DNA of 64,000 nucleotides. Origin: a candidate division KSB1 bacterium. Its GTDB lineage: Bacteria; Zhuqueibacterota; Zhuqueibacteria; Residuimicrobiales; Krinioviventaceae. Under the pieces are notes generated by a model, which saw nothing but the letters and a program-made list of their open reading frames with translations, made no database searches and was not told the DNA's origin. Made by a program: the position numbers and the translations under genes. The DNA lies in assembly GCA_034521575.1 (NCBI GenBank), contig JAXHMJ010000005.1, positions 186,001 to 250,000 on the forward strand. The letters are read 5' to 3'. Below, piece after piece: positions 30,988 through 52,429 of this stretch; within the stretch, counting starts at the first letter, position 1, and each line of letters begins with the position of its first letter.

Positions 30988-31208
30988 GACTAAAAAAAAG
31001 CCATTGGTTCAGAAAATGATTGACTTTTCGCTCATTATTTCGTAAATAAAGATCAACAGCAGATCGGGGCGCGAATTTACTTATGACTAGCTATTCCACA
31101 GACGACCATACCCTTGGACTCTCATGCTTCTGGATTGCGACTCTCATCAGATTGTAATTGGCGAGTCACATTCATAACATACATTCTTTATCAAGGAGGA
31201 GGAGCATT

Positions 31209-33848
31209 ATGAAACGTCTCATTTTATCGCTCATGGTTCTGGGGGTATGTACAACCGGATTTTCAAAAACACACTATGTAAACAACAACGCGGACAGCGG
31301 TCCCGGGTCTTTGAGAAATACGATCGCCGGGGCAGCCAAGGGAGACACGATTAAATTCAAAAGTATCACCACTATTGGACTTTCCAGCACTCTGGAGATT
31401 AACAAGACACTTTACATTATTGGGAACGAAAAACAATCCGTGGTTCTGGACGGACAGGACAAAACCGCAATTTTACGGGTTGTCAAACCGGCTTTCAGTC
31501 GGACAGCCACCGCTTACATTTATAGGATCCAGTTTATTAATGGGAAGAACGGTAAGTTTCCCCGACTACCGGAAAACGGCGGGGGTATTCTGAACCATGC
31601 AACGCTTTATTTGAGTCATTGCCGTGTACTCGACTGTTATGCAACCGGCGATGGTGGTGGTATTTACAATGAGGGTAACCTGTATGTTTACGATACGGAA
31701 ATCTCCGGCAATAGAGCCCTGCTCGACGGCGGTGGAATCATGCTTGATACCCAGTCCGGTAAAGTCGAGATCAGGGAATGCAAAATCAATAACAATGAAG
31801 CGGATCATGGGGCAGCAGTCTACAGTTTTGTCGATTTTTCATGCGAAAATTCCATCATCCGCAGCAACATCTGCAACAACAATTCCGGCGCCGTGCATTT
31901 TAAAATGACGAGCAATGATACCAGTCAATTTATATCCACAACCATCGATTCCAACAGCGCAATTGGATTGCATGCAGACGGTCCGATTGAAATGCATAAT
32001 GGAAACATCAGTTACAATGGCAGTATAGGGATCAATATGATGGATTATGGCAATATGCCGTTTCTGGATATTTTAAACACTGAAATACAAAGCAATGGAC
32101 AGGAAGGGATTTCTCTGGATGAATCCTGTAACCTGTTCATGGAAAATTGCAGACTAAAAATGAATAGCAGAGGTGTTTTCGCATTTGCAGAAAATCTTTT
32201 GGATATTAATCAATCCGAGTTTGTAGAAAACATAACCACAAGCAACGGGGGTGGTATTTACAGCGCCAATGATGCCGATTTGATTTTAAATGAGACGACA
32301 TTCTCAAAAAATGAAGCAAATAAGGGCGGTGCGATCGCAGGACTGTTTGAGGAGGTGACCATTGATTGGTGTCAGTTTAATCAGAACAAGTGCCAGACCG
32401 ACGGGGGAGGTATTTCTTTACTGTCCCTGGGACCGGTGCATGTCAATAATAGTGTGTTCTCGCAAAACGAATGCGTGGATTATGGCGGCGGATGTTATCT
32501 AAAAAGCTATGAATGGATCGAACTGAATTTGACCCGGTTTATGCGGAACACATCAGGAAGCGGCGGCGCCTTGTTCAACGAAAACGACAGTCTGATATTA
32601 AATTCAGTCCAAATGCAGGAAAACTATGCCGCAACGGACGGCGGCGGCATTTTCAATACACTCGGCGGTAATATTTATGCATTTAACTGTACATTACATT
32701 CAAACACCGCGGATCAGGATGGCGGCGGACTGTACAACGGATTTGCCCCAGGTTATCCGACGAGCGGCATGGGAAGCTATATCGAGATGGACAGCTGCCG
32801 CGTACACGCAAATTTATGCGACGGAGACGGGGCCGGCATCAACAACACCGATTATTTGCTACTGACCCGATCCTCGATCAGGGCCAATCACGCCCAGAGC
32901 AACGGCGGCGGTTTTTACAACGAAGGTGAAGAAGCGCGTTTGATTACGGAAGAGACGAGTTTCACTTTAAACACAGCAAACAACGGCGGCGGAATCTGCA
33001 ATATGAAGTTTATAGAAATGGATCGATGCAACATCAGCGGCAATTCAGTCGACAATCGCGGAGCTGGTATATACAATATTTCTACAGATCCCTGCGAGAT
33101 CACCAACACCACATTTTATGAAAACCTGTGCAGCGCAAGCGGACAGGGCGGCGGTATGTACGGCGCCGGCATGATGACTGAACTCATTAATTGCACGTTT
33201 AATAAAAACAAGGCCATGGACGGAGCTTCGATCAACAACATGGACCCCGGGTTGATGATTTCCAACACAATCATGGCCAACTGCCTGGCTGACAGTGAAT
33301 TCAGCGGAACCGTGCCTTCAGTGAATAACCACAATCTGGTGATGGACGGCAGCCTGGCCGGCGCCGCAACCAGCGATCCGCAGCTGCTGCCTTATGGGGA
33401 TTACGGCGGATTGACCCTGTCCTGCGCGCTCGCAGCGGAAAGTCCTGCTATTGATGCCGGAGACAATTCAGCCATCTCTTGTACGTGGGATCAGTGTAAC
33501 AATCCACGTTTTTACAACAGCGTGATTGATATCGGTGCGGTCGAATTCCAGGGAGCAACAGAGGTGGAAACAAAACAACTGCCGGAGCAGTTTGCTCTGT
33601 TTCAAAACTATCCGAACCCGTTCAATGCAGTTACAACCATCCGCTACAAAGTTGCCGATCCGACAACTGTACTTTTATTGATTTATGATATAAAGGGTCG
33701 CCTGGCCAGCACACTCGTAAATGAGCAGCAAACGCCGGGTGAATATCAGGTCCGCTGGCAAGCAGACCCGTTCTCTTCAGGACTGTATTTTTTCAGATTA
33801 AAAACAGAAACGTTCGATTGCACAAAATCAATGATACTGCTGAAATAA
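31209..33848 (+). CDS. Exported beta-helix repeat protein with C-terminal sorting domain
   Basis: The product is 879 residues. The ATG at 31209 is preceded by AAGGAGGAGGAG. A signal peptide (ending TGFSK) is followed by HYVNNNADSGPGSLRNTI, the usual opening of polymorphic-outer-membrane-like beta-helix proteins, then many coils of the type NxADGGGIYN with GGG turns (for example GGGIYNEGNLY, GGGIFNTLGG, GGGLYNG). From about residue 794 comes a Por/type IX-like domain (FQNYPNPFNAVTT, then YFFRLKTE, ending KSMILLK). It should be displayed on or released from the outer surface. Such proteins are adhesins or polysaccharide-active. The coils show no enzyme signature I can name. The gene is intact and monocistronic. 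Confidence 0.85.
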   Translation: MKRLILSLMVLGVCTTGFSKTHYVNNNADSGPGSLRNTIAGAAKGDTIKFKSITTIGLSSTLEINKTLYIIGNEKQSVVLDGQDKTAILRVVKPAFSRTATAYIYRIQFINGKNGKFPRLPENGGGILNHATLYLSHCRVLDCYATGDGGGIYNEGNLYVYDTEISGNRALLDGGGIMLDTQSGKVEIRECKINNNEADHGAAVYSFVDFSCENSIIRSNICNNNSGAVHFKMTSNDTSQFISTTIDSNSAIGLHADGPIEMHNGNISYNGSIGINMMDYGNMPFLDILNTEIQSNGQEGISLDESCNLFMENCRLKMNSRGVFAFAENLLDINQSEFVENITTSNGGGIYSANDADLILNETTFSKNEANKGGAIAGLFEEVTIDWCQFNQNKCQTDGGGISLLSLGPVHVNNSVFSQNECVDYGGGCYLKSYEWIELNLTRFMRNTSGSGGALFNENDSLILNSVQMQENYAATDGGGIFNTLGGNIYAFNCTLHSNTADQDGGGLYNGFAPGYPTSGMGSYIEMDSCRVHANLCDGDGAGINNTDYLLLTRSSIRANHAQSNGGGFYNEGEEARLITEETSFTLNTANNGGGICNMKFIEMDRCNISGNSVDNRGAGIYNISTDPCEITNTTFYENLCSASGQGGGMYGAGMMTELINCTFNKNKAMDGASINNMDPGLMISNTIMANCLADSEFSGTVPSVNNHNLVMDGSLAGAATSDPQLLPYGDYGGLTLSCALAAESPAIDAGDNSAISCTWDQCNNPRFYNSVIDIGAVEFQGATEVETKQLPEQFALFQNYPNPFNAVTTIRYKVADPTTVLLLIYDIKGRLASTLVNEQQTPGEYQVRWQADPFSSGLYFFRLKTETFDCTKSMILLK

Positions 33849-35275: not shown

Positions 35276-38200
35276 CTATTTCAGGTAAAGCAGTTTTCTC
35301 TGTAACGATTGATTTCCCGCAGTCATTTTCAGCATATACATCCCGGAACCTGCATCAATGCCATAGTTGTTTTTCCCATCCCACGATACAGTATGAATAC
35401 CGGCCTGCATGGGATTGTGCACAAGTTCCCGTACCGGTTGGCCCAGAATATTGTAAATTTGAATATCAACCCGTCCCGCAATTGGAAGTTCGTAGCGAAT
35501 CACAGTCCGATTGTTAAACGGATTCGGATAATTGGCCAATTTGTAGGTCTCGGGCAGGGTCTCGATTTCCAGATTATCCTGATTGTCCCGGATAACACTG
35601 ACCGGAGTATTATCCGGGCTGCGCAGATCAACCTGCTCAAAGCAGAGCGCGGACGCTCCGCCCTGGCCGGTTCTTTGAAAGAGAATGGAAAATAAAACAC
35701 CGCTCGGGTTAATCACAGCGCTCTGGTTGGTGCCGGTCAGCTTCGAAAAGGTGACATCGACCTGTCCCGGCTGCCCCGTGTCTGTAAACAGCACACAGGA
35801 TTCATCGGAGGGTGTCAGGAGACTGCCCGATTCAATCCGGTCAACTGTCAATGCAGCAGTATTAAACGACAGTTTTAGGTGCCCCATGGCAAGACGGTTT
35901 ACATTTTTTAGATAAACATCATAGCGCAGTTTTCCGTCGTTTTCACTCCATTGTCCGAATAAACGGCCATCCTGTTTGGCAAGAGAGGAGCCGTTTGTAT
36001 TCAGAGCCAGATAGTACCAGTTCCACATGCGGGTAAAGGTGAACAAATCTTCAAACCCGACGCGCCCGTCCGGCGCCGGTGTCAGCATCGGCACAGCGCC
36101 GCTGGCCGGCCCGACATCCCCGCTTGCATGATTGACCGGTTTCCAGTAGGTTCCCAACAGTGCAAAATCCCGGGTATCGATATCCAGATCCTCATCAAAA
36201 TCACACAAGATCGATGATGAACCGCTTGATCCGGCGGACTCTATTTCCGTGCCGGAACTGTTCACTTCGATGGCTGTTCCATCAGTCTGCCGCAAATCCA
36301 GTCCGTAAAAATCTATGGTACTGGCGCAATTTCTGACTTTGACCTCAAATTCAACAGATGCCAGCAGGCCGCTTCCGGAAATTGATTCAGTCGAATTCCC
36401 CTGAATCAGCCGCGATTGATTGATTTCAATTCGACCATTGGCCTCATCAATATCAGACAAAAACGCCTCCGAAGCTCCGCCGCTGCTCATAAACCCGCCG
36501 GACGTCACCTGCAGAGCGCTGATTTTATTCTTGTTGTAGAGCAGATAATACTGTGCGGCCGAAAGGTTCATTACATTTTGCGCGTAAACATCGATGGTAA
36601 ATGTTCTGCCTTCTATGCCCAGAACAACCTGCGGAAAAGTCAACAACTGACTGGAACCGATATAATAGGTCCCCTGATCGCTTCCGGTTTTGCTGTTGTA
36701 ATTCACCTGGACTTTTGCAGTGCGTTGAGTGTTATCCGGAGTCGTATTGGTAGGAACATAGGTGATCACATACTGTTGTAAAATCTGGTTACCGATGCGG
36801 TCCAGGATATTATTAAAGCCCTGGCTTAGCTTGTAAAAGTAGCCGCCGGTCTGTTCCGCCAGTTTTTCAAACTGGGGTTCATCCGGTCCGACCACGTTAC
36901 AGAGAATATTTCGGGCGTTCAGATGCGAAATCATAGTTTCCGTGGTAAAATGGGTGATCCCGTCGCCGCTTTCACCCGCCTCATGATAATCCGCATCTGT
37001 AATCAGAACTGCAATCCGCTGCGCCACAGCGCGGTAGCTGAGTTCAGCTGCAGCTTCCAGGCCTTTTAGAGCATTCTCTTTGCTGTCGCCGCCGCCGCTG
37101 GGATCCAGTCCATCGACCCATGTCTTGAATTCAAGGGCATCCGTTGTAAAATCATGAATAGACGTTATCTCGTCTTTGAACGTCACCAGCCCCAGACGAT
37201 AGTCCATGCCCCGGGCTGCAATAGAATCCGCAAACGCCAGACTGCGGTTCTTGAGCGCATTCCATTCATCATCAAGGCTGCCTGTGATATCAAATACAAA
37301 AACGATGTCTGCCTTTGCACCGGATGTCATGCTCAGTGTAGATATTGACAGATCAGATACAGCCTGATTGTCCTCTGTAACATCAAATGCAGAAAACGGC
37401 AAGCCCGTCAGGGGTGCATTTGTCAGCGTATCAATCACAGATACAAACAGCTTGACAAGCGGAAAATTCGTCGGATCGATGCTGGTAATGGACACCTTAT
37501 AAGCATCTTCTCTTGAGGGCTCGCCGGTAACTGTGATATAATGAGTCTTGGTTTCAACATAATCGCGGGTTCCATCCGAAACGGTCAGGGTCACAGTATA
37601 GTTTCCGGGATTTGCATAAACCCACTGCGGATGCTGTTCCTCAGAATCGACCACACCATCGCCGTCAAAATCCCAGGACCAGGATACAATATCCTGCGCC
37701 GCCTGAACCTGCTTTTGATCCAGCGCCGCGGCCATGCCTTTGTGCAGTGCGCCGGTACTGGGCCGCAATCCCTGTATGTAACTGTCAATCAACACCTGTC
37801 CGGTATTGCCGTCGATTTCACCCACCATCCAATAGTCACCGGTGCCGCTGGCGGGGACATTCACTGTGTGAACCAATCCTGCCCGCGTATAAATCTGCAC
37901 CACAGCCTCAGATGCCGTTAAACTCCCTGTTCCTGCATATCGATGCACATAAAATTTGTATCTCCCGGATACAAATTGCTTAATGGTAATCGTCTCCGGT
38001 CCGTAACTCTCTGTATCATCGTGATCGAGATAGGCGTAAGGAAATGAGTCACTTGATCCCTTGTCCGAATAGTAAACCAGATGATGCGTATCCTCGCCGG
38101 GCTTGGGCACCAATAAATGAATATCCAGGTCTCTCGGATTCAGACCCCAGTTCAACACAATACGCATTTCCGCATCTGTGATCATCGGACTCAGAGAGAT

Positions 38201-39343
38201 ATCCAGGGTTTTTTCTTCCCCCTCTGACAAGGAAACCGTAGATCGAAATGTTGAATAGGTTTCTGCGGATGCGGAGATCGTTGACACACCGACACCGGAC
38301 AAATTTTCAAACTGTACGGTCAACGGTGCCGGACCGGACCTGGGCGTGCCGCTGAAATTGGCCAGAATAACATTTGTGGGTATGTTCTGGATACAATAAT
38401 TTCCATCGTTGTCTGTAGTCGTGGACAGCCCTGCAACCGTGATTTGCGCCCCGGCAATACCATCACCGGTTGTGGCATCTGTCACCTGGCCGCAAAGTGA
38501 TGCGCCTCCTTCGCCGCCGGCTGTCTCGCCGACGGTAAGAATCAGACGCGCAGACACATAACCGGAAGCCGTGGCTTCAATGGCCGAGGTGCAGCCGGTG
38601 TCCGCATCCGCCGGAACCGTGGCATCAAACTCTGCATATGAGGCACCGGCATTAATGGTGATATTCGCGGGCACTTCAAAACACGGATTTTCAGAGCTCA
38701 GGGAAATTTCTACATCTGAAGCCGGAATTTCATTCAAACTCACACGCACCCGCGAATTTGAATTGGGTGGGGTGACCAAAGGATTTGCCGTCAAAATAAT
38801 GCGTTTTTCAAAGACACTCGATATTTCCAGCTCTGCCGAAGCATCCGGATAATCCGATTTGTAATAAAAGGAAAACGTTGAATTGATCAAACCAGACCAG
38901 TCGCCGCTCCACGCTGCAGGAGCCACCGCATAATGCCAGTCGCCCCGGGCCCAGTCATGCACAGCAATATAGCCGCTGTTTGATACACCGCCGGTTTCCG
39001 TCCACTGCATCGTGCCGTCGCCATGCGCGTTCCAACCGTCGAGTCCCGAATTGAACTCACTGGAAAAGCGCGTACCTACGGTGACGTTATCAATCGAGCC
39101 GATATCATGTCCACTGTGCGTTTCCGTACGAATACGAATCCGCTGGACATTGGCCATCACCTCTTCAAAATCGGATTGCGACACACCGAATTGATCCGCT
39201 GTCAGAGAAATCTCGAATTTCTGCCATTCATTGGCAGCGGACGGCGGCCCCCAGTTTGCAGTAATGATGGTACCTTGCGCCCGGACTGCGGGCTGTATGA
39301 GTAAAATCGACAACAGGAAACCAAAGACAATCGTTCTAAACAT
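35276..39343 (-). CDS. Giant surface protein: VWA, PKD, cohesin-like, dockerin-like and sorting domains
   Basis: The product is 1355 residues. The ATG at 39343 is chosen because GGAG precedes it; a GTG at 39355 is also in frame. From N to C: a signal peptide (ending VRAQG), a jelly-roll-like region, an Ig-like domain, a carboxypeptidase-regulatory domain (about 284-321), a segment with NPRDLDIHLLVP (about 397-497), a PKD domain (SWSWDFDGDGVVDSEE near 554), a VWA domain with MIDAS motif DITGS (near 685), a cohesin-like domain (about 907-1011), a dockerin-like block (CDFDEDLDIDTRDF and DGRVGFEDLF, about 1049-1111), a second cohesin-like domain (about 1137-1228) and a YPNPFNN sorting domain (about 1266-1355). 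It is co-directional with a cohesin-like lipoprotein and an SH3-like protein. A calcium-dependent surface scaffold or adhesin is inferred. Confidence 0.82.
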   Translation of the reverse strand: MFRTIVFGFLLSILLIQPAVRAQGTIITANWGPPSAANEWQKFEISLTADQFGVSQSDFEEVMANVQRIRIRTETHSGHDIGSIDNVTVGTRFSSEFNSGLDGWNAHGDGTMQWTETGGVSNSGYIAVHDWARGDWHYAVAPAAWSGDWSGLINSTFSFYYKSDYPDASAELEISSVFEKRIILTANPLVTPPNSNSRVRVSLNEIPASDVEISLSSENPCFEVPANITINAGASYAEFDATVPADADTGCTSAIEATASGYVSARLILTVGETAGGEGGASLCGQVTDATTGDGIAGAQITVAGLSTTTDNDGNYCIQNIPTNVILANFSGTPRSGPAPLTVQFENLSGVGVSTISASAETYSTFRSTVSLSEGEEKTLDISLSPMITDAEMRIVLNWGLNPRDLDIHLLVPKPGEDTHHLVYYSDKGSSDSFPYAYLDHDDTESYGPETITIKQFVSGRYKFYVHRYAGTGSLTASEAVVQIYTRAGLVHTVNVPASGTGDYWMVGEIDGNTGQVLIDSYIQGLRPSTGALHKGMAAALDQKQVQAAQDIVSWSWDFDGDGVVDSEEQHPQWVYANPGNYTVTLTVSDGTRDYVETKTHYITVTGEPSREDAYKVSITSIDPTNFPLVKLFVSVIDTLTNAPLTGLPFSAFDVTEDNQAVSDLSISTLSMTSGAKADIVFVFDITGSLDDEWNALKNRSLAFADSIAARGMDYRLGLVTFKDEITSIHDFTTDALEFKTWVDGLDPSGGGDSKENALKGLEAAAELSYRAVAQRIAVLITDADYHEAGESGDGITHFTTETMISHLNARNILCNVVGPDEPQFEKLAEQTGGYFYKLSQGFNNILDRIGNQILQQYVITYVPTNTTPDNTQRTAKVQVNYNSKTGSDQGTYYIGSSQLLTFPQVVLGIEGRTFTIDVYAQNVMNLSAAQYYLLYNKNKISALQVTSGGFMSSGGASEAFLSDIDEANGRIEINQSRLIQGNSTESISGSGLLASVEFEVKVRNCASTIDFYGLDLRQTDGTAIEVNSSGTEIESAGSSGSSSILCDFDEDLDIDTRDFALLGTYWKPVNHASGDVGPASGAVPMLTPAPDGRVGFEDLFTFTRMWNWYYLALNTNGSSLAKQDGRLFGQWSENDGKLRYDVYLKNVNRLAMGHLKLSFNTAALTVDRIESGSLLTPSDESCVLFTDTGQPGQVDVTFSKLTGTNQSAVINPSGVLFSILFQRTGQGGASALCFEQVDLRSPDNTPVSVIRDNQDNLEIETLPETYKLANYPNPFNNRTVIRYELPIAGRVDIQIYNILGQPVRELVHNPMQAGIHTVSWDGKNNYGIDAGSGMYMLKMTAGNQSLQRKLLYLK

Positions 39344-39379
39344 CTTGCACTCCACATTTTATCATTAAACTGAACGGTT

Positions 39380-40207
39380 TTATTGTATCGTAATGCGTCC
39401 GCCCAGTCCCATTGCGTACATGAGATTTGCATTCTGATCAAACAATGCATAATTGGAATTGACGTCATGATCAACGCGTACCGATAAATCAGTGATACCG
39501 GTGTCAACAGCCGTAAACACAATACGGCCTACGGTTCCTTGTCCGGTCACAGCAGCAGAAGCGGGAAAAATCCCAAAAACAACATCTACCGTACCCCCGC
39601 TGTTATCCTTGCTGAATAACAGCTGATTCACATTTCCGGCATTGCTTTTCAAAAACGCGTCCTCGCGTCCAAGTTCCTGAACCGTCAACACGGCCGGATC
39701 GAACTGCACTTGCGCGCCGAATGTTGCCATGTTAACCACCTGACGTGCCGCCAGATACAAGGTTATAGATTGTCCCACTGAAAGTGTCGAATCCGGAGGT
39801 GAGACAATAATGGTGGGAACGAGGAAATTCATCATAATAGACAAAGGAACAGTTTCTCCATCCGAAACCCGGAAACTGTCAGCACCGCTCATCACCTGAC
39901 GGGTATCCCGGTAGGCAACCGCCGTCGCGAGAAGGTCCTTGTTCGCCGGAACATTAATCCGGGCCCGGCCCTTTACACCGTCAAGCAGCAGTGAATCCCT
40001 GATCGGAGAAATACCGTCACCGGTGATGGTGATCACAAGACTGTCGAATGAGGCCGGCGTTAGTCCGGCCTGATTGAAAGAGATGCGGGCAGCTATACTG
40101 CTTTGTCCTTGCGTATGACCCCCAGGAGACTGCAGACTGCAGGACAGAGACACAACGAGAAAAATCAGGATAACAACAATGCATAAAATGCGCGCTTTAA
40201 GAAACAT
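39380..40207 (-). CDS. Lipoprotein with cohesin-like domain
   Basis: The product is 275 residues from the ATG at 40207 (TTGGAG upstream). It has a type II signal peptide with lipobox VSLSC near residue 23. An N-terminal beta domain (ITGDGISPIRDSL region) precedes a cohesin-like domain (about residues 140-265): VGQSITLYLAARQVVNMATFGAQVQFDP, then TVGRIVFTAVD. The protein would be held in the membrane and display one cohesin-type module. It lies 36 bp upstream of the giant protein, which has both dockerin-like and cohesin-like modules, so the lipoprotein is a candidate anchor for it. The family assignment rests on strand pattern and conserved spacing and is not certain. Confidence 0.7.
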   Translation of the reverse strand: MFLKARILCIVVILIFLVVSLSCSLQSPGGHTQGQSSIAARISFNQAGLTPASFDSLVITITGDGISPIRDSLLLDGVKGRARINVPANKDLLATAVAYRDTRQVMSGADSFRVSDGETVPLSIMMNFLVPTIIVSPPDSTLSVGQSITLYLAARQVVNMATFGAQVQFDPAVLTVQELGREDAFLKSNAGNVNQLLFSKDNSGGTVDVVFGIFPASAAVTGQGTVGRIVFTAVDTGITDLSVRVDHDVNSNYALFDQNANLMYAMGLGGRITIQ

Positions 40208-40238
40208 TGGATTCTCCAAAAGATGATTCAAATCAACA

Positions 40239-41042
40239 CTACTCCCATTCTACCAGAACATCAACAGTACCCTCTTTATCCGATTGCATTTGTGTCAGAT
40301 AATAGTAGGTACCGCCGCCTGCGGCAAGCAGCAGCAGCCAGAACCAACCACGTTTGTATACCGGCCGGGAAGTTCGGGAGCCGGTACTGCTGACTGCCTG
40401 TCTCCCGCTTGATCTTTCCCGGGCTTGGGCCTGTTTCTCGGTTGAAAAACGTATGTCAAATGGATCGGTTACCCGTTTATTACCGTAAACATCCTCCGCC
40501 TCGATTTGATAGGTCAAACCGGATCGACGTGTGATGGATTCCGGCAGGGTTACACTATATAGAGTGCCGGCTCCCAGCACCTTGACAGCATTCCTCGCAA
40601 TAAATCCGTGCGATCCGTTACTCGAAACAATTTGTATGTAATTGTCAAAAAGTTGTGCAACTTTGAAGCGTCTTCCGGCAGGCATGGTGCCCTTGTAATC
40701 ATAACGCTTGCCGGGCCCTGAATATACACGCGCCTCCTGCCGGGTTTCGGCGACAACCGGAACCTGCTCCGACATGTTTCGCATCTGGCCGCGTTTGCTG
40801 ACCCCGTTAATCGTGAGAACAAGCGTTACCTTTTGCAGCGAAGACTGATCCCCAATATGCGCACGAATCGGCAATTTCTGACCATATACTGGATTTTCCA
40901 CGGGGACATGCGCGATCACCGGCGGATAATTGTCTGCCGCTAGAGCAAATAGTAGATCACACAGGATCGGAGAAAACACCAGATACAGGATAAAAAACAC
41001 GGAGAAAAACGCCATCATCATTTCAGATTTAAAACATTTCAT
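40239..41042 (-). CDS. Membrane protein with bacterial SH3-like domain
   Basis: The product is 267 residues from the ATG at 41042 (GGAGAACG upstream). An N-terminal signal or anchor helix (FFSVFFILYLVFSPIL) is followed by an Ig-like strand set, then an SH3b-type domain (ARVYSGPGKRYDYKGTMPAGRRFKV to SHGFIARNAVKVL, about residues 90-155), a second beta region, a basic Ser/Arg linker and a second membrane helix (WFWLLLLAAGGGTYYYL, about 238-254) near the end. SH3b domains bind peptidoglycan or peptides. It begins the cluster leading to the cohesin lipoprotein and the giant VWA protein (31-bp and 36-bp gaps), so all three are probably one operon. Confidence 0.68.
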   Translation of the reverse strand: MKCFKSEMMMAFFSVFFILYLVFSPILCDLLFALAADNYPPVIAHVPVENPVYGQKLPIRAHIGDQSSLQKVTLVLTINGVSKRGQMRNMSEQVPVVAETRQEARVYSGPGKRYDYKGTMPAGRRFKVAQLFDNYIQIVSSNGSHGFIARNAVKVLGAGTLYSVTLPESITRRSGLTYQIEAEDVYGNKRVTDPFDIRFSTEKQAQARERSSGRQAVSSTGSRTSRPVYKRGWFWLLLLAAGGGTYYYLTQMQSDKEGTVDVLVEWE

Positions 41043-41492
41043 AACTTTACGTTCTCCACGAGATACAAGGTCCATCACTATCAAAAAATGAATTGATTAG
41101 GCAAAAAACAGCAATGTTTTACAGTCCGGTTGGGTTTAAAACTCCGTTCGGACATAGTTTTATGAACCAGATCAGCTGATCTGATAAAACGTCTTGAGAT
41201 TGTATCCGTAAAACCGGATCAAAAAACAAAAGAAAAAGGCCGGAAAAAGTGGCAGGGTAAACGATACTCGGCCATAAGCTGTCCTATCAAATAATAAAGG
41301 AAAGTATTAGATAGAGGCACTGCTCCAGTTTTCCTCTATCCGGCATATAATAGCAATTTTTTTTATTTATGTCAAGCAACATTATCAAATATTTTAAACT
41401 GATAAAATCTGATGTTTTTAGGATGAATCTGTATCAAAAGCTTTGTTACTATAAACAGGAGCAACAAAACAAGCAAAAGCAAGGAGAAAACA
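41043..41492. other. Divergent intergenic region with a 16-bp palindrome
   Basis: About 450 bases separate the surface-protein operon from the glycosylase gene. The clearest structure is the perfect palindrome CAGATCAGCTGATCTG at 41168-41183, a possible regulator site. I see no gene and no riboswitch that I can support. Confidence 0.5.
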
Positions 41493-47918: not shown

Positions 47919-50900
47919 TTATTGTCCTGTAAGATAATGCAATTCGATCACTGTCCTATTATAGTCACGCAGTACGTCCAGGTAATTCAACCGGATGGCC
48001 GTTGCCTGATCGAAATACTGCACATAATCGAGGTAATCTATATTTCCAGCCTGAATCTGCTCTTTTGCGCTTTTCATGATCAGGTCAGCCCGCCGCAAAC
48101 GGCTGTCCCGGTAATAATCGAGTTGTGTCCTGAGTGTATTCATACGGTTCAGAAGATTTTCAAATAGAGCCTGAATCTGACCTTTAACGTTGCGGTACTC
48201 CTGATGCTGAATCTGCGCTTCATATCGGGCTGCACGATTCCTGCCCTGTTCGGCCCAGATATCAAGCGGCAGCCTGAATCCAAGTTCAAAAGCGGATGCT
48301 TTGCCCGAACCGGGTAAATCCCGCTGGCTGTATCGGAAAAACGGATCCGGCCACGATTCGGAACGGGTTGCTCTGTGCTCAGCCTGAAACGCCATCCAGC
48401 GGCTGTAAGACACCCGGATTTCAGAATTATGACCCGGAAACGACTCTTTCATCCGCAGAGTATCCGGCAGCAGCGGATACAGTTCATCTTCTGCCGGCTC
48501 TATCATCCGGTCCGTTTGCAGATAATTTGCCAGTTCGCGTTTGTAATTCTCCAGGTCAGTCCGACCCTGCTCCTGAGCAACCAGAATATCATTATATTTG
48601 GCCTCTGCCGATACTTTTTCCAGAATCGACACATCGCCGGTTTCGTAGCGCAGTCTTCCGGCCTTTTCCAGGTCCCTGAACACGCTCAATTGTTCCCGTA
48701 TCAGAACAGCGCGATCCCGGGCGTACAAGACATTCATAAACGCAAACCGCACATCACGTTTCAATCGCGCCCGGATCTGCTCCAGCATCCGGCTGCTTTG
48801 AACAATTTGCTGCCGGGCAGCCCGGTTCCGGGATAAGGTCTGCAGCGGAAAATCAAACTCCTGTTCCACAGACCAGATCTCGGCGCCGTCAGGATTTTCC
48901 TGTTCGTAGATAAACCGGGTATCCGGTAAATCCCAGGTAGCCCTGCGCTGCTGCCGACTCTGTTTCACCTGCAGCTCCCCTGCTTTGACAGCGGGATAAC
49001 GTTTTAGCGCCGTGTCAATAGCCTCCTGCAGGGTCATGCGGGTGTCCGGCTGATACAGATTGCGGGCACATGCACCGGTTGGCAGCATTATAATCAAAAT
49101 AAGTAAAAGTGTAGACATTCGGCTCTGACCTCCCTTTATTATTCGTCCGGCGATTTTAGCAAGGGTTGGAATTCCCTTTTTCTGTTCGCTGAATGAATAA
49201 ATGATCGGCAATAAAATCAATGTTAGAACGGTCGCGGAAATCAGACCGCCGATTACCACCGTCGCCAAAGGCCGTTGTACTTCAGCGCCGGACGAGGTTG
49301 AAATCGCCATCGGCAGAAATCCGAACACATCTGTCAGTGATGTGAGAATGACCGGACGCACCCGCATGTCGGTGCCGTGATAAACTCTACGATACACATT
49401 GTTCATACCTTCCGCCTTGAGTTCGTTGAAGAAGCTGATCAGAACCACGCCGTCCAGAACCGCGATTCCGAACAAGGCAATGAATCCGATACCCGCCGAT
49501 ATGCTGAACGGCATGCCGCGAATCCAAAGTGAAAACACGCCTCCAATAGCAGCCAGCGGCACCGCAGAAAACACCAGAGCCGCCTGTTTTAAGGATCGAA
49601 ATGTAAAATACAAAAGTGTAAATATGAGCCCCAGAACCATCGGCACCACCCAGGACAAGCGTTTCTTGGCACGCTGCAGACTTTTGAAATCGCCTTCATA
49701 GGTGAGATTATAGCCGCGCGGCAGATTCAGATGCTGCTGCAGCCGGCTCTGCATCTCTCTGACAAAGGTCTCGGTATCCCGGCCGCTCACATTGATATCC
49801 ACTTCAAGTTTCCGCTTGACATCCTCGCGGGAAATGGCAGCCGGCCCGGTCTGTATGGAAATATCAGCCAGTTGTTTCAGCTGCACCTGTTCCCCGTTCG
49901 GCCGTTTGATATACAACTCACCGATGGCATCCGGATTATTCCGATAACCTTTTTCAAGACGCACCACCTGGGAAAACTGGCGTTCGCCCTCGTAAATGAT
50001 TCCTGCCGTTGCTCCGGAATAGCCAAACTGGATCGTGCGGTTGAGCGTCTCAATATCCAGCCCGTACAACGCCAGCCGGTCCCGGTCATAACGAATGATG
50101 ATCTGCGGCAGTCCGACTACTTTTTGCACGTTGAGGTCTCCGGCTCCGGGTATGTCCCGGATAATCGACTGCGCTTCATTGCCGAGGCGGTACAAGGTGT
50201 CCAGATCACTGCCGTAAATGTTCAGCAGGATATCCGCTGTTGATCCGGTCATCAGGTGTTTGAACAGCATTTCAATGGGCTGGGAGAAGAAAAAACTCAC
50301 TCCCGGGATTTCTGCGGACATTTCATGCTTCATCATCTGTGCCAGCTCATTCTTGCTGTCGGTTCGGGTCCATTCATCCCGGGGTTTCAGATTGATGATC
50401 ATTTTAGCCATTTCCAGAGACATGGGATCAGTCGGGATTTCACCCGTACCGATTTTGGTGGCAACCTGCTCCACTTCATCCGGAAACCCGGTCAGCAGGA
50501 TCTGCTCAAGCCGGGTATTAATCTCAACCGTTTCCTGCAGAGATGTTCCCGGCTGGAGAATGGGATGAATAGCAAAATCACCTTCATCAAGCTGTGGAAT
50601 AAAAACCGAGCCCAACCGGGTGAACAGAAACAGTGCCACGGCAAACAACAGAACAATAATAGCGGTCACCGCATATCGGTAACGCAAGGCCCGGCGCAGC
50701 AGCTGCTGGTAACGTTTGCGCAGCCAAATGATAAACCGGTCGGCAAAGCTGCTTCTTTCGCTTTTTTCAGGCCGCAGGAGCAGGGCCGACATCATTGGAA
50801 CATAGGTAAAACACAGAATAATCGCACCAATCAGCGCCGACCCAAATGTGATAACCATGGGTTTGAACATATCGCCTTCCTGTCCCGTGAGTGTCAGAAT

Positions 50901-52298
50901 AGGGATAAAAACAATGAGAATGATCATCTGACCGAAAAACGCGGTGCGCATCATACGTCCCGCAGACCAGATGGTGATATCATCTATATCTGAACTCAAT
51001 AGCCGTCCCCTGGAAGCGATTAAAACCGAGCGTTTGCGGCTGATCTGAAACACAATAAACTCAACAATGATCAGCGCCCCATCCACGATAATCCCGAAAT
51101 CCACAGCCCCCAGACTGATGAGATTGGCGGAAAAATCAAAGGTATACATCACCCCCAGGGCAAAAAGCAGAGACAACGGAATCACCGAAGCGGTAATCAA
51201 ACCGGAACGCATGCTGCCCATCAGCAGCACGAGCACAAAAACCACAATTAAAGCGCCCAGCGCCAGATTTTCGGTGACCGTGTTTGTGGTTTCGCGAATC
51301 AACGTGGAACGGTCCAGAAACGGCGTCAGTTCCACACCTTCCGGCAGGGCCGCGCGCACCCGCGGCAGCCGTTCTTTTACATTGGTAATCACATCCGCCG
51401 GATTCTCTCCGCGCAGCATCATGATCTTGCCGCCGACCGCCTCACCGGTGCCATTATACGTAAAAGCGCCGAAGCGCGGAGCATGTCCGAACCTGACGGT
51501 TGCCACATCACCGATCCTCAACGGCATACCGTTTTCATTGCCGAGCACAACCGCGCGAATATCATCAAGAGAGCGGGTCAATCCCTCCCCGCGAATAAAG
51601 TAGGCGCGCCGGTTTTTTTCAATATAGCTGCCGCCGGCATTGGCATTGTTTTGCTGCAGCGACCTAAAGATATCCATAATGGATAGATTATAGCTCCGCA
51701 GCCTGACCGGATTGACCGCTACTTCATATTGTTTTAAATATCCGCCCATGGTATTCACCCCCACAACACCGGGGATATTGATCAATTCTTTTTTCACGAT
51801 CCAGTCCTGAATCTCACGCAGGTCCATAGCCGTGTACACCGAATCATACCCCGGTTTGGCATACAGCACATACTGATAAATCTCACCCAGCCCCGTGGTC
51901 ATAGGACCAATGGAGGGCCGGCCGACGCCGGGCGGCAGCTTTTCCGCGGCAGTTTCCAGTTTTTCCCGCACCAGCTGGCGCGGTTTGTACATGCCCATCT
52001 TGTCTTCAAAGACCAGCGTAATATCCGATAACCCAAACTTGGATACAGAACGAATTTCCTGCAGACCGGGTAGATTGCCCAATTCCAGTTCAATGGGGTA
52101 TGTGATCAGCCGCTCAACCTCTTCAGTTGCCAGATCCGGCGACCAGGTGGTCACTTTGACCTGATTATTGGTAAGATCAGGTAATGTGTTCAACGGCAGA
52201 TGGAACAGTGAGTACAGACCCCACGCAATCCAGGCCGCTGTGAACAAAGCGATAACAAATTTGTTTCTGACAGAAAACGCAATTATTTTATTTATCAT
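47919..52298 (-). CDS. CusA/CzcA-type RND pump fused to a TolC-like channel
   Basis: The 1459-residue protein joins two proteins. Residues 1 to about 1035 are a heavy-metal RND permease: NTLPDLTNNQVKV, the proton-relay helix GAVDFGIIVDGALIIVE (near 400), FSQPIEMLF in the porter domain and GIAVLDGVVLISFFNE near 960. After a linker (KIAGRIIKGGQSR) and a new signal-like stretch (MSTLLLILIIMLPTGACA), residues from about 1060 form an outer-membrane factor (LQEAIDTALKRYPAVKAGELQVKQSR; LPLDIWAEQGRNRAARYEAQI). The start at 52298 gives the usual MINKIIAFSVRNKF. The same fusion is known in FCB bacteria. Because the TolC half keeps a lipobox-like PTGAC, it may be processed after export. It acts with the adaptor downstream. 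Confidence 0.92.
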   Translation of the reverse strand: MINKIIAFSVRNKFVIALFTAAWIAWGLYSLFHLPLNTLPDLTNNQVKVTTWSPDLATEEVERLITYPIELELGNLPGLQEIRSVSKFGLSDITLVFEDKMGMYKPRQLVREKLETAAEKLPPGVGRPSIGPMTTGLGEIYQYVLYAKPGYDSVYTAMDLREIQDWIVKKELINIPGVVGVNTMGGYLKQYEVAVNPVRLRSYNLSIMDIFRSLQQNNANAGGSYIEKNRRAYFIRGEGLTRSLDDIRAVVLGNENGMPLRIGDVATVRFGHAPRFGAFTYNGTGEAVGGKIMMLRGENPADVITNVKERLPRVRAALPEGVELTPFLDRSTLIRETTNTVTENLALGALIVVFVLVLLMGSMRSGLITASVIPLSLLFALGVMYTFDFSANLISLGAVDFGIIVDGALIIVEFIVFQISRKRSVLIASRGRLLSSDIDDITIWSAGRMMRTAFFGQMIILIVFIPILTLTGQEGDMFKPMVITFGSALIGAIILCFTYVPMMSALLLRPEKSERSSFADRFIIWLRKRYQQLLRRALRYRYAVTAIIVLLFAVALFLFTRLGSVFIPQLDEGDFAIHPILQPGTSLQETVEINTRLEQILLTGFPDEVEQVATKIGTGEIPTDPMSLEMAKMIINLKPRDEWTRTDSKNELAQMMKHEMSAEIPGVSFFFSQPIEMLFKHLMTGSTADILLNIYGSDLDTLYRLGNEAQSIIRDIPGAGDLNVQKVVGLPQIIIRYDRDRLALYGLDIETLNRTIQFGYSGATAGIIYEGERQFSQVVRLEKGYRNNPDAIGELYIKRPNGEQVQLKQLADISIQTGPAAISREDVKRKLEVDINVSGRDTETFVREMQSRLQQHLNLPRGYNLTYEGDFKSLQRAKKRLSWVVPMVLGLIFTLLYFTFRSLKQAALVFSAVPLAAIGGVFSLWIRGMPFSISAGIGFIALFGIAVLDGVVLISFFNELKAEGMNNVYRRVYHGTDMRVRPVILTSLTDVFGFLPMAISTSSGAEVQRPLATVVIGGLISATVLTLILLPIIYSFSEQKKGIPTLAKIAGRIIKGGQSRMSTLLLILIIMLPTGACARNLYQPDTRMTLQEAIDTALKRYPAVKAGELQVKQSRQQRRATWDLPDTRFIYEQENPDGAEIWSVEQEFDFPLQTLSRNRAARQQIVQSSRMLEQIRARLKRDVRFAFMNVLYARDRAVLIREQLSVFRDLEKAGRLRYETGDVSILEKVSAEAKYNDILVAQEQGRTDLENYKRELANYLQTDRMIEPAEDELYPLLPDTLRMKESFPGHNSEIRVSYSRWMAFQAEHRATRSESWPDPFFRYSQRDLPGSGKASAFELGFRLPLDIWAEQGRNRAARYEAQIQHQEYRNVKGQIQALFENLLNRMNTLRTQLDYYRDSRLRRADLIMKSAKEQIQAGNIDYLDYVQYFDQATAIRLNYLDVLRDYNRTVIELHYLTGQ

Positions 52299-52429
52299 AA
52301 CAGTCCGATTTTTAGAATTAAACAGCTTTGATCTGCCACGCCGATAACGAAACGGCATGTAAACACAAAATTCCCGTCAGGTTTTCAGCAGGCAAACCTA
52401 AAATATCAGCAAACAGTTTTCTAATAAAA

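Follow-up and report, generated by a model that had tools for sequence, protein, structure and literature searches.

An interlaced CPD/PKD module in the giant protein of a conserved KSB1 three-gene operon that probably encodes a cell-surface complex

Three adjacent genes in the window (the whole 64,000-nucleotide stretch of KSB1 DNA analysed here) probably build a protein complex at the cell surface, and the largest of their products carries a module in which segments of two mobile β-sandwich families, CarboxypepD_reg (CPD) and PKD, are interlaced along the chain. The reading that best explains the set as a whole combines such a complex with a tether between the dockerin-like block of the giant and the lipoprotein, a partner role for the SH3b protein and a clamp formed by the interlaced module, and we put its probability at about 0.5. 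In its favor are the gene order, the confirmed cohesins, the single-copy and conserved block, the presence of SprA and PorV, the PKD and CPD profile matches and the AlphaFold models, whereas the low confidence and degenerate second loop of the block and the degraded VWA metal site of some relatives count against it.

The three-gene operon and its conservation

An earlier note, made from the sequence letters, had reported three co-directional genes separated by about 31 and 36 bp. This observation is real: all three ORFs lie on the minus strand, with gaps of 36 and 31 bp when the genes are counted from their ATG codons (Table 1). The SH3b protein has an N-terminal hydrophobic segment, the SH3b domain, a C-terminal hydrophobic helix and a short tail ending in VEWE; its assignment in the earlier note is upheld by SH3_3 matches in 10 of 12 relatives (best 6e-9), the window copy itself scoring below the Pfam cut-off. 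In the lipoprotein, the cysteine at the end of the signal is invariant across nine relatives.

Within one KSB1/Calditrichota order, the full succession of SH3 protein, cohesin lipoprotein and giant is present in 17 genomes (the window genome, G001-G006, G009, G044-G047 and G049-G053), including G006 and G009, where the giant runs off the contig past its start, and G049, which holds a second complete copy. The operon is cut by contig ends in G008, G043 and G048, and the neighborhood that the earlier note had proposed to look for in relatives is contradicted in no genome. Conservation of both the gene order and the domains throughout a whole order shows that the operon is not a chance arrangement. 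Among the 82 genomes of the phylum searched, the lipoprotein was present in 20, all from the order of the window, and was not found outside that order.

A decayed second copy of the operon is found elsewhere in the same genome (L047:7994-9777; C5, ~1.7100-1.7118 Mb), with a frameshifted SH3 gene, a diverged cohesin lipoprotein and adjoining cyclase and MATE genes; no giant was found at this locus. The intact operon of G001, G002, G003, G008 and G009 adjoins genes of the same kind, and for this reason the window copy is taken to stand at a different site. Further along the window, a 1479-residue minus-strand ORF (47919-52358) fuses an RND efflux pump (ACR_tran, 25-1056) to TolC-like OEP repeats, so that inner- and outer-membrane parts are contained within one chain.

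Table 1. Features of the operon, all positions being those of the window. Residues of the giant are numbered from the GTG start; subtract 4 for numbering from the ATG.
Feature	Position	Strand	Residues	Remarks
SH3b-type membrane protein	40239..41042	-		order-wide ortholog, first in operon; ORF 40239-41084, ATG at 41042
Cohesin lipoprotein	39380..40207	-		one cohesin domain; ORF 39380-40231, ATG at 40207
Giant exported protein	35276..39343	-		ORF 35276-39355, opening at GTG 39355; ATG at 39343 gives 1355 residues
CPD-a	38378..38503	-	285-326	first CarboxypepD_reg part
PKD-a	38288..38371	-	329-356	N-terminal PKD segment within CPD
CPD-b	38180..38287	-	357-392	second CPD part
TerD-like β-sandwich	37766..38179	-	393-530	no Pfam family
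PKD-b	37526..37696	-	554-610	rest of PKD domain
VWA domain	36824..37309	-	683-844	MIDAS-like DITGS
Cohesin 1 of giant	36233..36652	-	~902-1041	
Dockerin-like block	36011..36211	-	1049-1115	first calcium loop complete, second degenerate
Cohesin 2 of giant	35582..35971	-	~1129-1258	
Type IX C-terminal sorting domain	35279..35530	-	1276-1359	

Cohesins and the dockerin-like block

The giants share a constant core of VWA domain, cohesin, dockerin-like block, cohesin and type IX tail, preceded by variable N-termini that contain interlaced modules, a second VWA domain, BNR repeats or PPC repeats. The MIDAS-bearing VWA domain described earlier has an intact DITGS motif in the window copy; in G003 and G004 the metal motif is degraded.

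Both cohesins proposed for the giant were recovered by Pfam PF00963 (two stretches, 51.1 bits; cut-off 24.1), and the giant has such a match in all ten relatives. The cohesin of the lipoprotein was recovered as well, at 24.3 bits just over the same cut-off and with matches in seven of nine relatives, and it is a relative of the cohesins in the giant. AlphaFold predicts cohesin 1 of the giant confidently and cohesin 2 with moderate confidence, and the model matches solved cohesins, in agreement with the cohesin-like domains called in the earlier note: a Foldseek search gave 477 matches at E ≤ 0.001, solved cohesins making up nearly all of the 50 listed. The fold matches that of the non-cellulosomal Archaeoglobus fulgidus cohesin 2xdh with a TM score of 0.81 on the target. 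By gathering score and by fold, these domains belong to the cohesin family.

The dockerin-like block lying between the two cohesins of the giant is strongly conserved across the order. By our own reading of its calcium loops, the first (DFDEDLDIDTRDF) is a complete dockerin-type loop that aligns to solved dockerins, and the second (TPAPDGRVGFED) is without ligands at positions 1 and 3 and finds no match among solved dockerins. Pfam Dockerin_1 matches weakly in four of ten relatives (best E 0.008) and gives no hit in the window copy, and AlphaFold, with only 10 sequences, predicts two helices in the block, most of which has a pLDDT below 50. The dockerin-like block of the earlier note thus retains its one good calcium loop but falls short in the rest, and the two calcium-loop/helix repeats and gathering score that define dockerin family PF00404 were not found.

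Searched with a profile of the block, eight family genomes each gave exactly one copy, located in the giant every time; the remaining two of the 10 family genomes have a giant that is truncated where the contig stops. Because of this single copy, confined to the giant, a cellulosome-like system with many clients was rejected for the block, and the earlier descriptions of the set as self-contained and as lacking a classical cellulosome both fit, no client carrying the block. Pfam dockerin hits in the window's own genome are few and weak. If the block docks, which is putative, its docking stays within the operon.

The most likely tether of the giant would be the binding of this block to the cohesin of the lipoprotein. 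Another reading, which we hold to be possible and somewhat doubtful, is that the block is a calcium-stabilized spacer packed on the flanking cohesins of its own chain, with no docking between proteins and with the three proteins co-expressed and joined by other means. Such a spacer would agree with the degeneracy of the second loop and with the fact that the block is always placed between two cohesins of one protein and nowhere else in the family genomes, whereas the anchored, related cohesin that is always encoded next to it argues for a partner outside the chain, and the low pLDDT of the block means that no confident in-chain packing is seen.

The interlaced CPD/PKD module

The PKD domain reported in the earlier note is indeed of the PKD family, but it is not continuous, as its N-terminal part lies inside a CPD domain. 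This CPD domain (285-392), the TerD-like sandwich that follows it and the interlacing of these parts had not appeared in the earlier note. The Pfam PKD match at residues 538-609 begins only at profile position 13-15. The missing start, VILANFSGTPRSGPAPLTVQFENLSGVG, is found in the hairpin loop of the CPD domain, which places the first 24 positions of the PKD profile 197 residues upstream of the remainder.

With a profile built from continuous PKD domains only, the 28 residues of PKD-a match positions 2-25; the median score is 26.5 bits and the lowest 18.6, the best of 345 shuffles reaching 5.0. PKD-b matches positions 25-80 with 68 bits, and the two pieces joined score 96 bits; the median gain on joining is 27.8 bits, and a gain is seen in 69 of 69 copies. 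Shuffled PKD-a sequences placed before PKD-b gain about nothing, and the native upstream linker does likewise. The CPD domain, rejoined without its insert, scores 54.7 bits over profile positions 2-82 of 82. Judged by these profile matches, no full-length PKD match is contained in one continuous stretch and the domain would consist of the two pieces, and the chain order is therefore read as CPD-a, PKD-a, CPD-b, sandwich, linker and PKD-b. Once their pieces are joined, PKD (PF00801/PF18911) and CarboxypepD_reg (PF13620) are each recognized along almost all of their profiles; the usual members of these families are continuous, independent modules, whereas here the two are interlaced.

The AlphaFold model of the module has a mean pLDDT of 89.1 and a pTM of 0.73, with ten-residue blocks of PKD-a at 83-93. 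Structure matches to the CPD domain span about 110 columns on targets of 82 residues, which fits an insertion of about 28 residues, as interlacing predicts. The fold of the sandwich is nearest to that of TerD proteins (2qng, 2qz7). No solved structure covering the module was present in the copy of the PDB searched.

The first PKD strands, housed in the CPD hairpin loop, would complete the PKD domain after the sandwich, and this pairing would clamp the three β-domains into one rigid unit. Against the pairing, covariation between PKD-a and PKD-b (mutual information with APC) is no higher than background in 77 sequences, of which about 47 are effective. The same lack of a specific signal would suit a reading in which PKD-a is an enlarged CPD hairpin that came to resemble PKD by convergence, and PKD-b a truncated domain able to fold on its own. 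PKD-a nevertheless matches exactly those profile positions that PKD-b lacks, in every copy scored and far above the shuffled maximum, and we regard convergence as very improbable.

The interlaced order was seen in 74 of 74 distinct full copies from KSB1/Calditrichota, Bacteroidota and Neomarinimicrobiota, most of them from Bacteroidota; 67 passed a motif scan, and the other seven, read by eye, have both PKD pieces. All 13 full copies of the family are included in this pattern. In G003 and G004 the module stands three times in tandem, repeating as one unit, and in Bacteroidota the carriers contain between two and four modules in tandem together with a type IX tail, those scanned having neither VWA domains nor cohesins. 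A scrambling of the PKD domain by sequencing or assembly error was rejected, the same order being present in 74 distinct copies from many genomes and phyla. A Neomarinimicrobiota protein (L081:2221-7290) carries, in addition to the interlaced module, a cohesin, a type IX tail and a Dockerin_1 match that at 27.1 bits exceeds the Pfam cut-off.

It is rather probable that the arrangement is a conserved interlacing A1-B1-A2-C-B2 of two mobile β-sandwich families, inherited and tandem-duplicated as a unit in three phyla and forming a clamp that is indivisible along the chain. Relatives with a CPD domain and sandwich and without either PKD piece exist, and in an alignment with two of these plain pairs the PKD-a insert appears as a clean gap after a conserved turn. 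The ancestral state is plausibly such a plain CPD-sandwich pair, and a tree test of a single origin gave three changes of state. As to the route, our guess is that, next to another PKD domain, the CPD loop took up a whole PKD domain and that complementary halves were then lost. In other folds, for example that of periplasmic binding proteins, a chain passing between two lobes is familiar. No published description of interlaced mobile domain families, or of a PKD domain split with CPD, was found in the part of the literature covered, and an interlaced pair of module families that are otherwise mobile appears to be undescribed.

The proposed surface complex and its significance

The type IX-like sorting domain noticed earlier at the C-terminus of the giant is recognized by Por_Secre_tail (30.3 bits, cut-off 27), and the same genome gives a SprA_N match of 136.9 bits and 18 PorV-family matches over the cut-off. 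With both the sorting domain and the secretion machinery encoded, the giant would qualify as type IX cargo, and its export by this route is plausible because the genome carries SprA and the PorV-family proteins. Type IX tails are very many in this genome; one belongs to an 896-residue right-handed β-helix protein with Chlam_PMP repeats that is encoded next to the operon on the plus strand (31158-33848).

We propose that the giant is exported by, and attached to the surface through, the type IX system, that its variable N-terminal β-modules, here the interlaced module, serve as a stalk and a ligand-binding head, and that the core running from the VWA domain to the second cohesin holds it to the envelope. 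The SH3b membrane protein could be a cell-wall or inner-membrane partner. The earlier note had suggested that chains could be built; in these, giants would join head to tail, the block of one binding a cohesin of the next and the lipoprotein cohesin serving as end anchor. With its single block and two cohesins, each giant, together with the anchored cohesin, would provide for this, but the giants would in any case be held at the surface by their type IX attachment, and we consider such chains improbable. A giant tethered individually through its block to the lipoprotein is the reading that we prefer.

Cohesin and dockerin proteins outside cellulosomes and cellulose degradation are found in ANME archaea (PMC9012536). 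Like these and the Archaeoglobus proteins (PMC9012536; 2xdh), the giant has cohesins, several of which share one polypeptide with a dockerin or, here, a dockerin-like block; what sets it apart is an unvarying operon of three genes, a private block present once in a genome, and the addition of a VWA domain and a type IX tail. The cellulosome-like complex of the Cloacimonadota 'Ca. Stygibacter', with several dockerin-bearing enzymes as clients (PMC8542988), likewise has a cohesin scaffold with a C-terminal surface-attachment domain, whereas here there is a single dockerin-like block, borne by no client protein.

Extracellular modules of the PKD and CPD type are treated by domain databases and by most evolutionary models as beads, each shuffled intact. 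A stable module of wide inheritance whose two domains share chain segments would be another route of domain combination, would account for the way PKD is annotated as truncated in these proteins, and would offer protein design a natural rigid clamp. For the uncultured KSB1 bacteria themselves, the operon would supply a private surface complex of cohesin/dockerin-like type that can be tested and that differs from a cellulosome.
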